DNA of 49,988 bases from an uncultured bacterium (GTDB lineage Bacteria; Verrucomicrobiota; Kiritimatiellia; RFP12; UBA1067): positions 1 through 49,988 of the forward strand of contig CACZAK010000032.1 of assembly GCA_902779075.1 (NCBI GenBank). Reading direction: 5' to 3'. The position numbers were made by a program, and so were the translations under genes. Positions 44,313 to 49,988 of the stretch are shown piece after piece. The notes below the pieces were generated by a model. That model was given only the letters and a program-made list of their open reading frames with translations, ran no database searches and was not told the DNA's origin. Each line of letters begins with the position of its first letter. Within the stretch, counting starts at the first letter, position 1.

Positions 44313-45275
44313 ATGGATGTTACAAGACGAGGTTTCCTTACTGGCGGCATGGCGTTCGGCGGGCTGTTTGCCACGTCGGCGCTGCCGGCGATTGCGGACG
44401 ACGATCCGTCGCTGTTTCCGGGGCGGGGACGCTTCGAGCGCCTGTCGCTCACCTATCACGCGATCAAGGCCGGCGCGACGAAGCCGTTTACCGTTCTGCA
44501 CATCTCCGATACGCACCTCACGGCAGCGTATCCCGACGAGGGCGAATTTGAACGGAAGACCGCCTACCGGCGCATCCGCACGTTCGGGGGACGCCAGGAG
44601 GAGGCGCTGCGTGACTCCATCGCGTGGGCGAAGGAACACGTGGACTACCTCCTCCACACCGGCGACCTGATCGACTTCCAGAGCCGGGCGAATTTCGACC
44701 TCGTGAAGAAGTACTACGGCGAAGGCGGCGCGATGATGTTCGGGTGCCTCGGCAACCACGAGCACTACCGGGGCAAGAAGATGGCGAAGAAGGACGGCAC
44801 GCCCATCGTGCCGGCGGTCGTTCCCGATTTGCTCAAGGAGGCATACCCGTTCCCGAACGACTTCTGCTCAACCGTCATCAACGGCGTGAACTTCGTCACG
44901 ATCGACGATTCTACGGATACGGTGTCCGCCGACCAGGCGTCGCGCTTCGAGGCCGAGGTGAAGAAGGGGCTGCCGATTCTCCTCTGCATGCACTGTCCGT
45001 TCCCGACGCGCGAGATCGTCCGGGCCGCGAGCCGGTTCTGGCCGAGGACCAACCTGAAGGCCATCCGGGACATGAGCAACTTCGTCGAGAGCGAGAAGTA
45101 CAAGGACGCGACGACCAAGGATTTCGTCGCATACCTGCGCGCGCAGCCGCTTCTCAAGGGAATCCTCTGCGGACACGGCCACCTGAACGTCGTCGACGAC
45201 TTCTCGCCCACTGCGAAGCAGTACGAGGTGGCGGGCAACTTCATGTTCTGTGGACAGGAGTTCACGATCTCGTGA
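44313..45275 (+). CDS. Tat-type exported metallophosphoesterase
   Basis: 320 residues from ATG 44313. Leader VTRRGFLTGGMAFGGLFATSALPAIA has a proper twin arginine. The calcineurin-like motifs are LHISDTHLT, LHTGDLIDF, GCLGNHEHY and LCGHGHLN. Secreted phosphoesterases of this type remove phosphate from sugars, nucleotides or lipids. The frame is open far upstream, but that region belongs to the ThuA gene, and the leader fixes the start. It lies within the sugar cluster, 59 bases after the ThuA gene. Confidence 0.87.
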   Translation: MDVTRRGFLTGGMAFGGLFATSALPAIADDDPSLFPGRGRFERLSLTYHAIKAGATKPFTVLHISDTHLTAAYPDEGEFERKTAYRRIRTFGGRQEEALRDSIAWAKEHVDYLLHTGDLIDFQSRANFDLVKKYYGEGGAMMFGCLGNHEHYRGKKMAKKDGTPIVPAVVPDLLKEAYPFPNDFCSTVINGVNFVTIDDSTDTVSADQASRFEAEVKKGLPILLCMHCPFPTREIVRAASRFWPRTNLKAIRDMSNFVESEKYKDATTKDFVAYLRAQPLLKGILCGHGHLNVVDDFSPTAKQYEVAGNFMFCGQEFTIS

Positions 45276-45321
45276 CCGATTTCAAGAATCGCAAAATCAA
45301 ACGAAAACAAAAGGAGCAACA

Positions 45322-46170
45322 ATGAACGTAGGAGTATTCCTCTGCCTCGAGCCTTACACATCGCTCGAAAACAACCTCCGTCTCGCGCACGAGTACGGAT
45401 TCAACTATGCGGACATCACGGACACGCACTCCGGCGGCAGCATGTTCGCGAGCGCGGGGCTCTCGGCCTCCGTTAGCCTCGACGACAACCCGTTCGAGGT
45501 ACGGCGCACATTCGAGCGCAACGGCATGAAGATCATGACCCTCAGCGCACACGCGTTGCTGCTTGAGCCGTCCTCGCCCGCCAACTTCGCGACGTCCGAG
45601 ATCATGAAGGCGATCAAGTTCGCCGCCGGCGCAGGCATCGAGTACGTGATCACCACCGAGACCTTCGCGAAGAGCGAGTGGGCGAAGTCGCTCACCTACA
45701 AGGAGAAGGTGTTCATCGCTGCCGAGAAGCTGTACAACCCCTGCAAAATGGCGGCGGACTACGGCATCAAGCTCTGCCTCGAACAGCATGGTCCGCTCAC
45801 TGACACCATCGACGGCATCGCCGACATCATGGATCGCCTCGGCAACCCCGACTCCCTCGGCGTGAACCTAGACACCGGCAACAGCTGGCTCGGCGGCACG
45901 AATCCCGTGGACCTCGCGAAGAAGTACCACGACAAGATCTACCACATCCACTGGAAGGACCTGGGTGAGGAGTGGATTCCGAAACGCGGGACGATCTTCG
46001 GCTGCGGCTTCTCCACCATCGAAGTGGGTACGGGATGCATCGACATTGCCGGCGTGATCGAGACACTGAAGGACAACAAGAACATCAAATACTCCACGCT
46101 CGAGGTCGGTGGTTCGGCAGAGCTCCTCCGCGCCAGCGCGAAGTACATCGAGGACCGCTGGAACGCATAA
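45322..46170 (+). CDS. sugar phosphate isomerase/epimerase (TIM barrel)
   Basis: 282 residues of the xylose-isomerase-like barrel family (AP endonuclease 2 fold). Metal-binding pattern seen in LCLEQHGPLTDT, GVNLDTGNSW, HIHWKD and STLEVGG. Cytoplasmic, without signal. AAAGGAG sits five bases before ATG 45322. In the cluster it may isomerise or epimerise the keto sugar produced by the exported oxidoreductases after uptake. Precise substrate unknown. Confidence 0.87.
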   Translation: MNVGVFLCLEPYTSLENNLRLAHEYGFNYADITDTHSGGSMFASAGLSASVSLDDNPFEVRRTFERNGMKIMTLSAHALLLEPSSPANFATSEIMKAIKFAAGAGIEYVITTETFAKSEWAKSLTYKEKVFIAAEKLYNPCKMAADYGIKLCLEQHGPLTDTIDGIADIMDRLGNPDSLGVNLDTGNSWLGGTNPVDLAKKYHDKIYHIHWKDLGEEWIPKRGTIFGCGFSTIEVGTGCIDIAGVIETLKDNKNIKYSTLEVGGSAELLRASAKYIEDRWNA

Positions 46171-46198
46171 CGGCGAAACTAGATTCGGCGTCGGGCGG

Positions 46199-47470
46199 GT
46201 GACGCGCTTCTACGTGCCCCTGGTGCTTCAGGCGTTCTCGCAGTCGTTCGTGTACCCCCTCGCCGCCGGCATCGTCACGCACGGCGCACACGGCGTCAAT
46301 GCGCTCACGGCGTTTAATCAGGGTCTACTTATAGCATTCACGATCGGCGCCATCGGTGGCGGGCTTATTACAACCGGGATGCTGTTTGCCAAGACGTGGC
46401 TGGGATACGTCACGTTCCGTCGGCTCAACGCATACATGATGTGGAGCCTTGTAGCGCTGCAGTGCATCCCTGCTCTTCCGCCGTTTAACACATGGGTGTT
46501 CGAGGGGTTCTTCAACCTTCCGGCAGACCTTGCGGAGATATCCCGCGATACGCTCCTCTTCAGCAGCGTAATGAACATTGGATTCTTCGTGAGGAACGTG
46601 CCGATGGCGGTACTGTTCAACAACCTTGAATCCGGCAAGGCGAGTCGCGCGACCGCGCTGCGCATCGCTGCGACGCTTGGGTGCGCCGCCGTGTTCCCGC
46701 GCATCGGCTGGGTAGGCCCGGCCTGGGGGCTTTTCGCGCTTACGCTGGGCGTTTGGATTGAGACGCTGTCCACATGGCTGTACGCGCGCCCATTCGTCGC
46801 AAAGCTACCGGGGCGTCCGGAAAAAGGCGGCATAGATGCTTCTCCATCGGTGAACATGTCGTCGCTGCTCCTTGACCAGTTCCGCTTCACCATGCCGCTC
46901 TCGCTGGGGGGCTTTCTCCTCGCGTGTTCTCCGCTGGTGATCGCGGCTTTCGTCTCGCGTTCGGCTAATGCGGCGGACATGCTCGCGGTTCATTACGTGA
47001 CGATCGGCATCGTCGCTCCCGCGTCCTTCTGCGCCCTGCGTCTGCAGACCGTGACCGTGAAGTTCATGCCCGAATATCCCGGCGACCGCAGGCTTCTCTG
47101 GTATTCCATTGCGGCGGGACTCGTTCTGGGGGTTGTTCCGCTTGCGTTCTCCACGTCCTTGCTGGGCGACTGGTATTTCGGCGTGTTTCAGAACGTGCCG
47201 CCGCGCATTCTCGGCACGGCCAAGTTGGCCATGGGCATCTATTCGGTCATGGGCGTCATCCAGGCCATTCGCGGCCGCGTGGAGGGCCTAGCGGCAGGGC
47301 GGAAGCGTCCCAAGGCCGTGATGTGGGGACAGTTCGCCTACACTATGTCGTTGCTGCTGGTATGTGCAGCGCTTCTGCCGTTGGGCTTTCCCGGATGGAC
47401 GATCGCGGTCTCGGCGCTCATTGTCGCGCCAGTCTGCGTCACAGCGGTAATCTACGCGGTTTTAAGGTGA
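46199..47470 (+). CDS. multi-pass membrane protein, possibly MOP/MATE-like transporter
   Basis: About 423 residues with ten to twelve hydrophobic segments and short loops. It begins TRFYVPLVLQAFSQSFVYPLAAGIV, like the first helix of MATE or ANKH-type exporters. Internal repeat-like halves (FFNLPADLAEISRDTLLFSSV and later LLDQFRFTMPLSLGGFLLACSPLVIAAF) support a two-bundle flippase. The start is uncertain: GTG 46199 is chosen since it opens directly into the first helix and lies 28 bases after the previous gene; earlier in-frame codons overlap that gene. Family assignment is tentative. Confidence 0.7.
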   Translation: MTRFYVPLVLQAFSQSFVYPLAAGIVTHGAHGVNALTAFNQGLLIAFTIGAIGGGLITTGMLFAKTWLGYVTFRRLNAYMMWSLVALQCIPALPPFNTWVFEGFFNLPADLAEISRDTLLFSSVMNIGFFVRNVPMAVLFNNLESGKASRATALRIAATLGCAAVFPRIGWVGPAWGLFALTLGVWIETLSTWLYARPFVAKLPGRPEKGGIDASPSVNMSSLLLDQFRFTMPLSLGGFLLACSPLVIAAFVSRSANAADMLAVHYVTIGIVAPASFCALRLQTVTVKFMPEYPGDRRLLWYSIAAGLVLGVVPLAFSTSLLGDWYFGVFQNVPPRILGTAKLAMGIYSVMGVIQAIRGRVEGLAAGRKRPKAVMWGQFAYTMSLLLVCAALLPLGFPGWTIAVSALIVAPVCVTAVIYAVLR

Positions 47471-47491
47471 AAGAGGCGAAAGGACGAAGAG

Positions 47492-49792
47492 ATGATCGAC
47501 GACACGATAGGTAACAAGACCACGATAGGCAACATGCCCACTATGCGCCAATACACGGGATCAGCGCTGGGGCGCATTGACCAGTACGAGCTGCTGAAGG
47601 AGCTTGGCGGCGGAGGATTTGGTACGGTGTACCTTGCACGTGACACTGTTTCCGGCGTTGACGTGGCGGTGAAGGGACTGCCGCCGTTGGTGAAGAACAA
47701 CCGTGAGGAGATGGAGAACATCCGCTCGAACTTCGCGCTTGTCTCGCGTCTTCACCATCCGAACATCGCGGCCGCGCTCGTTCTGCACCCGGCGAAGGAA
47801 GTGACATACGCGGCGGAGGACGCCCGCCAGAAACTGCGCGTCGATCCAGGCGACACGCTAATGGTGATGGAATATGCCCCTGGCGTGACACTCTCCAAGT
47901 GGCGCAAGCAGTTTCCAAACGGCATTGTGCCGTTTGCCAAGGCGCTGGAGATAACCCGCCAGATAGCCTCGGCCCTTGACTATGCGCACGAGCGGAAGAT
48001 CGTACATCGCGACGTCAAGCCAACTAACGTGATGGTCGAAACGGCGGCGGACGGCTTGGTGACGGCGCGCGTGCTTGACTTCGGCCTCGCGGCAGAGGTG
48101 CGCTCGTCGATGGGACGTGTCTCGCGCGAAATACACGACACTTCGGGAACGCGTCCGTACATGGCCCCCGAACAGTGGGGCGGTGATAGTCAGGGACCTG
48201 CCACCGACCAGTATGCGCTTGCGGCGACTTTCTACGAACTCGTCGCAGGGCACGTGCCGTTCGCGAATGCTTTCGAGACCGGCGATCCAATGATCATGAT
48301 CACGGTGGTGACGACCCGCCAGCCGGAAATGCCGAACGGTCTTCCCGAATCTGCACGCAACGCGCTTGCCAAGGCGCTTGCAAAGAAGCCGTCCGATCGC
48401 TTTGCGTCCTGTTGCGACTTTACTGCGGCTCTTGCGGGAAGCGTCTCTGCGGCGCATGTTCCTGCCATCGCTGCTAAGGCGTCGCCGCTACCGCATTCGC
48501 ATATAAAGGCGGCTGCTACCGAGGAAGGCGCGAAGAGAGCACGTGCCGAGACGAAGATACGGATGTTGCGTCTCAAGCAGATTTCTGATGACAATGGATT
48601 CGCCAAGCGGAAGTCGGGGCTGAATGATGCGTTTCAGAAGGCCGATATTTTCTTTGAATCTGAGCTTTGGTCGGACGCCGCGAGCAGTTTCGATGAATGC
48701 TCTAGGCAAGTTGAATTTTTAGAGGAGTTGGATTCGGAGCGCAAGACTGCAGATGAGAAGCGCAAAAATGCCGTTGAGGCTCAAGACAGCGCAAAAAACG
48801 CTCAGGCAGAAAAATACACCGCAACAGAGTGGGGGAATGCAATAAAGCTGTTGTCGGATGGCGAGGCAGCGTATGGTCGGATGGACTTCGCTACCGCTAT
48901 TGTTGCCTTCAGCGATTCTGCTGCCGGATTTTCAAAGAGTGAGCAAAAAGCGATAGAGGAGCGAAAGGAGGCAGAACGCAAAGCGCGCGAGGAGGCGGAG
49001 CGCAAAGCGCGTGAGGAGGCGGAACGCAAAGTGCGCGAGGAGGCGGAGCGTAAAGCGCGTGAGGAGGCGGAACGTAAGGCACGCGAGGCAGCGGAGCGTA
49101 AAGCGCGAGAGGAGGCGGACCATAAAGCAATAGAGGAATGGGTGCGGTGTGGTAAGGTTCAGTTATGGGAGGGTGGCCCGTATTGGGCTACAAAGAACAT
49201 TGGTGCGGAAACTCCTGTAGATTATGGCTTCTATTTCTGGTGGGGCGATACCGTGGGATACAAGCGCGTGGGCGACTCCTGGGAGGCGAGCGATGGATCC
49301 AAGTCGGGATTCCAGTTTAGCAAAGACAACACTCCGACCGACGGGAAAAGTATCAGTGAACTAACGAACAATGGATGGATTACTGTGAAAGGGAAGGGAT
49401 GGTTTTCAAAGAAATATGCCCTTGCGCCAGAACGTGACGCCGCACACGTGCATTGGGGTGGAGAATGGCGTATGCCGACGAAACAAGAACTCGACGATCT
49501 TTCCAGCAAATGTGATTGGGAATGGACGACTGTTAATGGTGTTAATGGGTATGTTGTTCGCGGCAGAGGTAATTATGTTTCAGCAAGTATCTTCCTTCCC
49601 TGCGCCGGCAACGGCAGCGGGACTTCGCTCTACCTTGCCGGTTCGTACGGCGGCTACTGGTCGTCCGTTCCGCACTCGGTCTACAGCTACGGCGCGTGGG
49701 GCCTCGACTTCAATTCGAGCTGCCACAGCACGGACGACAACGGCCGCGACGGCGGGCAGTCTGTTCGCCCTGTCCAAGGGTTCACCCAATAG
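47492..49792 (+). CDS. Ser/Thr protein kinase-coiled coil-FISUMP protein, likely DGR variable protein
   Basis: 766 residues. Kinase domain about 31-310: glycine loop LGGGGFGTVY, Lys61, HRDVKPTN (172-179), DFG (196-198), APE (225-227), so active in form. Residues about 350-545 are charged and coiled, with eight-residue AERKAREE units repeated about seven times (48955-49125). The end (about 548-766) is a FISUMP/DUF1566 domain of the C-type-lectin-like group: GGPYWATKNIG, EWRMPTKQELDDL, GGYWSS, SVRPVQGF. No transmembrane helix is seen. Near the end most non-framework residues use NNC codons, as expected if a template full of AAC codons had been mutated at adenines. AAAGGA precedes the start. Confidence 0.9.
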   Translation: MIDDTIGNKTTIGNMPTMRQYTGSALGRIDQYELLKELGGGGFGTVYLARDTVSGVDVAVKGLPPLVKNNREEMENIRSNFALVSRLHHPNIAAALVLHPAKEVTYAAEDARQKLRVDPGDTLMVMEYAPGVTLSKWRKQFPNGIVPFAKALEITRQIASALDYAHERKIVHRDVKPTNVMVETAADGLVTARVLDFGLAAEVRSSMGRVSREIHDTSGTRPYMAPEQWGGDSQGPATDQYALAATFYELVAGHVPFANAFETGDPMIMITVVTTRQPEMPNGLPESARNALAKALAKKPSDRFASCCDFTAALAGSVSAAHVPAIAAKASPLPHSHIKAAATEEGAKRARAETKIRMLRLKQISDDNGFAKRKSGLNDAFQKADIFFESELWSDAASSFDECSRQVEFLEELDSERKTADEKRKNAVEAQDSAKNAQAEKYTATEWGNAIKLLSDGEAAYGRMDFATAIVAFSDSAAGFSKSEQKAIEERKEAERKAREEAERKAREEAERKVREEAERKAREEAERKAREAAERKAREEADHKAIEEWVRCGKVQLWEGGPYWATKNIGAETPVDYGFYFWWGDTVGYKRVGDSWEASDGSKSGFQFSKDNTPTDGKSISELTNNGWITVKGKGWFSKKYALAPERDAAHVHWGGEWRMPTKQELDDLSSKCDWEWTTVNGVNGYVVRGRGNYVSASIFLPCAGNGSGTSLYLAGSYGGYWSSVPHSVYSYGAWGLDFNSSCHSTDDNGRDGGQSVRPVQGFTQ
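48955..49125 (+). repeat. tandem 24-bp coding repeats (AERKAREE)
   Basis: About seven units of 24 bp, each like GAGGCGGAGCGCAAAGCGCG with small changes, coding the charged helix between kinase and FISUMP parts. Confidence 0.9.
49600..49786 (+). other. candidate DGR variable region
   Basis: The last 60 codons of the kinase-FISUMP gene. Framework residues (YWSS, LDFNSS, GQSVRPVQ) alternate with runs of NNC codons such as AGC TGC CAC AGC and GAC GAC AAC GGC CGC GAC GGC. This is the pattern of a variable repeat ending in an invariant SVRPV block. No template or reverse transcriptase lies in the window; 196 bases remain after the stop. Confidence 0.6.
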
Positions 49793-49809
49793 CGAGCGAA
49801 GCGAGCGCA

Positions 49810-49840
49810 TTCAATTCTTTAATTCTTCAATTCTTTAATC
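49810..49840 (+). repeat. low-complexity TTCAATTCTTTAA repeat
   Basis: ATTCAATTCTTTAATTC and a second close unit directly after the kinase gene, preceded by two GCGAGCG units. Same class as the other simple phrases in the window. Confidence 0.65.
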
Positions 49841-49857
49841 GTCGGCGCGGGATTGTG

Positions 49858-49888
49858 GGCGGCTCGGCGGGACGCCTCGCCCCACCAC
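49858..49888 (-). repeat. diverged GGTAGGGC-type palindromic repeat, minus strand
   Basis: On the minus strand GGTGGGGCGAGGCGTCCCGC resembles the start of the repeats at 2361 and 33789. Imperfect hairpin. The remaining bases to 49988 hold a possible TATACT (49924-49929) but no recognisable gene. Confidence 0.4.
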
Positions 49889-49988
49889 ACATCTACACGT
49901 TCTACATGTTCTTGCCTATAACTTATACTGCAACTGCGTAAATTCCTAGTTCCTCGGCACTTATGCCAAGTTTGGAAATCTTCTTCTT

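Follow-up and report, generated by a model that had tools for sequence, protein, structure and literature searches.

The window analysed here, the whole 49,988-nt stretch of contig CACZAK010000032.1 from an uncultured bacterium of the Kiritimatiellia, has near its end a gene for a Ser/Thr kinase with a lectin-like C-terminal domain, and it raises two questions: is the end of this gene a target of a diversity-generating retroelement (DGR), and if so, where is the cassette that rewrites it? To the first we answer that the kinase with its lectin domain is very probably a DGR target, of which 187 nt have been rewritten from an adenine-rich template like that of genome G013, a member of the same genus as the genome nearest to the window (G001, 34% of sampled 31-mers in common). 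We hold this because the differences from that template are adenine-confined, third codon positions in the repeat are template-like, a cassette of template, Avd-like protein and reverse transcriptase exists in the same genus, and a conserved element follows the stop codon. An earlier note on this DNA had placed the feature at 49141..49988, which fits the C-terminal domain; the gene itself begins further upstream, at 47492, and the repeat in the strict sense occupies 49600-49786.

47492..49792, + strand: Ser/Thr kinase, linker and Lcl_C gene, the putative DGR target (variable protein); 766-aa open frame, Pfam matches (P0023)
47585..48406, + strand: Hanks-type kinase domain, residues 32-305 (Pkinase E 8e-41; motifs in translation)
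48961..49146, + strand: 24-nt repeats (family D1) coding A-E-R-K-A-R-E-E, from repeat analysis
49142..49789, + strand: Lcl_C (DUF1566) domain, predicted C-type-lectin fold
49600..49786, + strand: variable repeat (VR), 187 nt; changed at 26/53 template adenines and at 6/134 other bases
49760..49786, + strand: 3' end of the VR, where the initiation of mutagenic homology (IMH) would lie; 4/6 non-adenine differences fall here
49792..49806, + strand: hairpin-like element GCGAGC-GAA-GCGAGC, whose first base is the final base of the stop codon (motif matches, gene-end alignment)

The variable repeat and its template

Three genes of G001 have ends like that of the window gene, and the four ends align as fixed blocks plus NNC codons. 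A template was predicted from four variable repeats by placing adenines at the variable codons, and was searched for in 97 relatives. Matches were obtained in 34 of these, including 15 of the 16 genomes of the genus, and the best of them (G013:C54:23349-23535; 96% identity, 302 bits) is the template of a G013 cassette. In a gapless 187-nt alignment with this template, 26 of its 53 adenines and 6 of its 134 other bases are replaced in the window (Fisher p 6.4e-12), an adenine confinement far beyond chance. The adenine substitutions comprise 18 A>G, 6 A>T and 2 A>C, and all fall at codon position 1 (15) or 2 (11). Among the 21 AAC/AAT codons of the template 18 are altered in the window with the third base kept in 18/18; the earlier note had traced the NNC variation to AAC-rich template codons. 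Adenines account for 26 of the 32 mismatches (81%), which exceeds the 75% threshold for secondary targets given in the accessible part of PMC8144416. The remaining six differences lie at repeat positions 121, 122, 163, 173, 175 and 180, four of them within the last 25 nt.

Third codon positions change abruptly at the repeat border. Between the window gene and the target gene of the G013 cassette, the fraction of identical third positions is 0.47 upstream of the repeat and 0.95 within it, and over the 11 usable of 13 comparisons (G013 C86 and G001 C49 were left out) it is 0.37-0.54 before the repeat and 0.70-0.98 inside. DNA identity in the rest of the domain is just 67% between the window and the G013 target (410-column alignment). 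Such a jump is what copying from a common template would leave, unlike selection at the protein level. Together with the adenine-confined changes and the match to the G013 template, it bears out the C-terminal DGR repeat that had been proposed from the letters of the window.

Related loci show the same pattern. The fetched loci of relatives hold 49 distinct template or repeat segments (matches below 100 nt and identical cores dropped; not a census), namely two templates, in G013 and in G024 of the same family, with 19 and 18 AAC codons, and 47 repeats, in which 40-67% of adenines and 1-28% of other bases are changed relative to the template. In the template/repeat pair of G024 itself, the changes affect 25/48 adenines against 2/127 other bases. 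Two proteins, P0003 and P0007, have three or four tandem Lcl_C domains, each with a repeat-like stretch at its end.

The kinase domain scores 140.6 bits against a family cut-off of 31.7 in the Pfam search, and its translation contains HRDVKPTN, DFG and APE stretches, which we take to be the kinase motifs. The A-E-R-K-A-R-E-E linker probably forms a rigid charged helix or coiled coil. The C-terminal match to Lcl_C (residues 655-761, E 3e-6, 28 bits) falls below the Pfam cut-off of 34.9, so that "Lcl_C-like" is the strict wording, though homologues carry PF07603. This domain is predicted to have the C-type-lectin (CTL) fold, with the varied region at its C-terminus; a sequence search of the PDB gave nothing relevant (three matches, E 0.63-0.68). 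The framework blocks YWSS, LDFNSS and SVRPVQGF named in the earlier note are all present in the translation, and its claim that the protein lacks a membrane helix agrees with a highest 19-residue Kyte-Doolittle mean of 1.39, at which no such helix is seen.

Cassettes in relatives and the position of the window gene

The G013 cassette, on a contig identical to one of isolate RUG14821, consists in order of an Lcl_C target, an accessory protein of 166 aa that matches no Pfam family, an Avd-like protein (NF033474 E 4e-12, PF22296 E 5e-9, each below cut-off), the template with its 19 AAC codons, and a reverse transcriptase (RVT_1 52.9 bits, over cut-off) containing GLPIGNLSSQ and YVDD. A GxxxGNLxSQ-like stretch is a mark of DGR reverse transcriptases; at this site, enzymes encoded by group II introns in these genomes have QGGxxSPLL. 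Further cassettes occur in G024 (its contig identical to one of goat-rumen Kiritimatiellae bacterium RGIG3447), in G104, where target, template (17 AAC codons) and reverse transcriptase are present, and in G006, where the accessory start continues directly into the reverse transcriptase and neither template nor Avd is seen between them. This fusion (L103, G006:C50:8377-10479) would represent either a deleted cassette or an assembly collapse. Of the 97 relatives, 3 yielded the cognate reverse transcriptase (2 of them among the 16 genomes of the genus), as did 4 of 161 genomes across the order; none of the 66 pattern stretches in viral contigs is a relative of this enzyme.

The earlier note had expected the template, an accessory protein and a reverse transcriptase just downstream of the window, and this expectation is not borne out. 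The exact 766-aa protein occurs on four contigs, the longest of 49988 bases, which probably makes the window a complete contig; its apparent end at 49988 lies 196 nt beyond the stop of the kinase gene. In three of four related cassettes the accessory gene starts 82 nt (G013), 108 nt (G024) or 135 nt (G006) after the target stop (the start motif was not found in G104); no accessory start is present in the 196 nt downstream of the window gene. No exact match to the last bases of the window was obtained in the viral or genome contigs searched, from which near records were possibly excluded. G001 has no template match and no cognate reverse transcriptase despite its three repeats, and its single RVT_1 match was rejected as a DGR enzyme, being of group II intron type. 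Because the 196 nt contain no accessory start and the G001 repeats occur without a DGR-type reverse transcriptase, the window kinase is probably better explained as a remote target whose cassette lies elsewhere or has since disappeared.

Three observations concern the surroundings of the gene. Positions 45213-47471 of the window are 96% identical to G001:C43, with a synteny break at 47471-47492, after which the window continues with the kinase gene and G001 with another gene; a kinase ortholog at the same place in that genome was accordingly rejected. On the minus strand, at 49923-49988, an open frame KKKISKLGISAEELGIYAVAV* enters from the contig end and is perhaps the end of a convergent gene. 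A dispersed palindrome-like repeat occupies 49852-49889, and 27 of the 33 G001 matches of the gene's 3' region fall there.

In the proposed mechanism, template RNA would be reverse-transcribed with errors at adenines, and the mutated cDNA would land upstream of the element behind the stop codon, by mutagenic retrohoming. With the kinase gene away from the cassette, this rewriting would take place in trans, now or formerly. The varied lectin face could then bind ligand and thereby tune or control the cytoplasmic kinase, and the population would sample many specificities on one signalling output.

It is quite possible, if short of likely, that the target is a fossil: a past DGR wrote the repeat, the cassette was lost or was never in this lineage, and the sensor is now fixed. 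The mismatch within the genus between widespread repeats (15/16 genomes) and rare reverse transcriptases (2/16) is in keeping with this, as are the near-identical, frozen repeat shared by G001 C37 and G013 C36 and the nine genomes that, in the loci read, carry repeats with at most 10% non-adenine change, in two of which the reverse transcriptase was found. On the other hand, the window differs from the template of another species at merely six non-adenines, clustered as described above, and within the 49-segment set only the G013 cassette's own repeat is closer to that template (1/134), with one tie (6/133); metagenome-assembled genomes, moreover, can drop such loci.

The element behind the stop codon

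In many repeats the stop codon is directly followed by GCGARCGAAGYGAGC. Across 18 whole genomes the element pattern matches 26 times, against 9 for the reversed pattern, and 21 of the 26 matches lie behind a whole repeat, 2 behind a repeat remnant and 3 elsewhere (in one gene-end set for the element, 2/30 rows were not flagged as repeats: L002, at a locus edge, and L162). Of 37 target-gene ends, 28 fit a stem of 6 positions, two of them G.A, closed by a 3-nt loop. In DNA, both tandem G.A pairs and GAA loops form stable structures. Stem pair 5/11 is G-C in 15 of the 28 ends, A-T in 12 and G-T in 1.

We consider it somewhat unlikely that the element, rather than signalling retrohoming, terminates transcription or hitch-hiked when a gene end was copied. 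Either reading would accord with the folding of the common form, which under a DNA energy model is no better than that of shuffled sequences (z 0.13, -0.10), with the T-rich tract after the element, and with the chance that gene ends were copied as a unit. However, a terminator scan finds none at the window element; positions 5 and 11 co-vary, with both forms present inside single genomes (G011 and G013); some divergent gene ends carry full Watson-Crick hairpins at the same site (z -2.3 to -3.1); and the element is absent behind the two templates of the 49-segment set, those of G013 and G024.

The weakest alternative, which does without a retroelement and invokes the usual divergence of paralogues or positive selection acting on NNC codons, is highly improbable. 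The Lcl_C domains do form a large family of paralogues, with 813 proteins at an E-value limit of 0.001, and selection may diversify binding loops, but this leaves unexplained the rise of third-position identity from 0.47 to 0.95, the adenine confinement and a template found by prediction.

The kinase family, its sensor modules and known systems

At an E-value limit of 1e-80, 10 of 59 genomes encode kinases related to that of the window, with 47-72% identity in the kinase part; an eleventh genome and further rows match through the lectin domain alone. One of these kinases, in G033 (69% identity in the aligned part), has at its C-terminal end an FGE-type domain, whose repeat differs from the template behind a neighbouring reverse transcriptase at 21/34 adenines and 1/109 other bases. 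Given the Lcl_C end in the window and the FGE-type end in G033, DGR-varied lectin domains of two types have become attached to this kinase family. At the G033 locus (L144 10962-12538, G033:C75) the reverse transcriptase frame of the FGE-type DGR continues into the template, and three related kinases flank it.

Among six Lcl_C-ended kinases compared, four, the window's included, are without a strongly hydrophobic stretch (highest means 0.83-1.39), and those of P0007 and G013:C1 have one (1.99 and 2.02). The repeat of the G013 kinase is an old one, with 24/52 adenines against 30/130 other bases changed. In a protein comparison, the near ortholog P0088 is 80% identical over the first 429 residues and 69% over the C-terminal part, with differing residues at many of the varied positions of the window protein. 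A kinase tree of 19 rows (the short row G008:C147 was dropped; G013:C65 and G024:C218 were missed by the motif filter) requires three changes of the Lcl_C label. Since only 2 of its 16 inner branches are well supported, we claim no history from it, and the label may have had a single origin. An N-terminal T-I-N-D-A-x-T-like motif is common to kinases and a membrane-anchored G001 neighbour (window 47492-47540; L039, L146; P0116), in the forms MFQPTINDATT, MLEQTINDAAT, MITDTINDAQT and MNYDTINDAVT, and may be a site of phosphorylation or docking.

For cyanobacteria, PMC7517822 describes DGR variable proteins, both cassette-internal and remote, in which a Ser/Thr kinase at the N-terminus is combined with a C-type lectin (CLec) domain at the C-terminus. 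The window gene resembles them in its kinase with a C-terminal lectin fold, its VR at the 3' end and its remote paralogues; most of theirs are predicted to be cytosolic, and the same sensor idea is proposed there. It differs from them in phylum and in its domain, which is Lcl_C/DUF1566 here and FGE-type in the related G033 kinase. Because these kinases are already published, the window gene is a well-supported new example and not a new kind. The putative antigen sensors of multicellular bacteria diversified by DGRs, which in the excerpted text of PMC10907252 include a Pkinase target, likewise join an effector or signalling domain to a varied CLec domain, and some of those targets are thought to be varied in trans. 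Surveys of genomes and of the human microbiome (PMC4159848, PMC6642488) name DUF1566 (Lcl_C) as the commonest Pfam domain of DGR targets; it is the domain varied in the window, and the word "kinase" appears in the main text of neither. For the element, the closest likeness is the hairpin that phage BPP-1 of Bordetella needs at the stop codon of its target, immediately behind the VR; as described in the available part of PMC3240598, it has an 8-bp stem and a 4-nt GAAA loop, whereas the common form here has a stem of 6 bp, with G.A at two positions, and a GAA loop of 3 nt. Among the matches listed in the literature on DGRs, none mentions Kiritimatiell-; we found no DGR report for this host group.

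DGR-varied Ser/Thr kinases extend beyond the cyanobacteria and the sulfur bacterium of PMC10907252, and the varied domain of the window kinase is the one that domain surveys call the most common DGR target. That one kinase family carries two kinds of DGR-varied lectin domain, of which the FGE-type one in G033 comes with a template and reverse transcriptase of its own, makes a modular exchange of evolvable sensors testable. Widespread repeats against rare reverse transcriptases raise the question whether rewriting is done by mobile or transient cassettes. Put at its boldest, and as a whole we think it unlikely to hold, the proposal is that a cytoplasmic kinase receptor of Kiritimatiellae gets new binding faces in trans from a DGR that enters and leaves genomes, a wandering mutator common to many signalling and surface proteins; its landing element, with G.A pairs and a GAA triloop, would be a type of hairpin new to DGRs. 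If that were true, targets would retain their near-template repeats and the landing element, and the cassette would be only an occasional resident.
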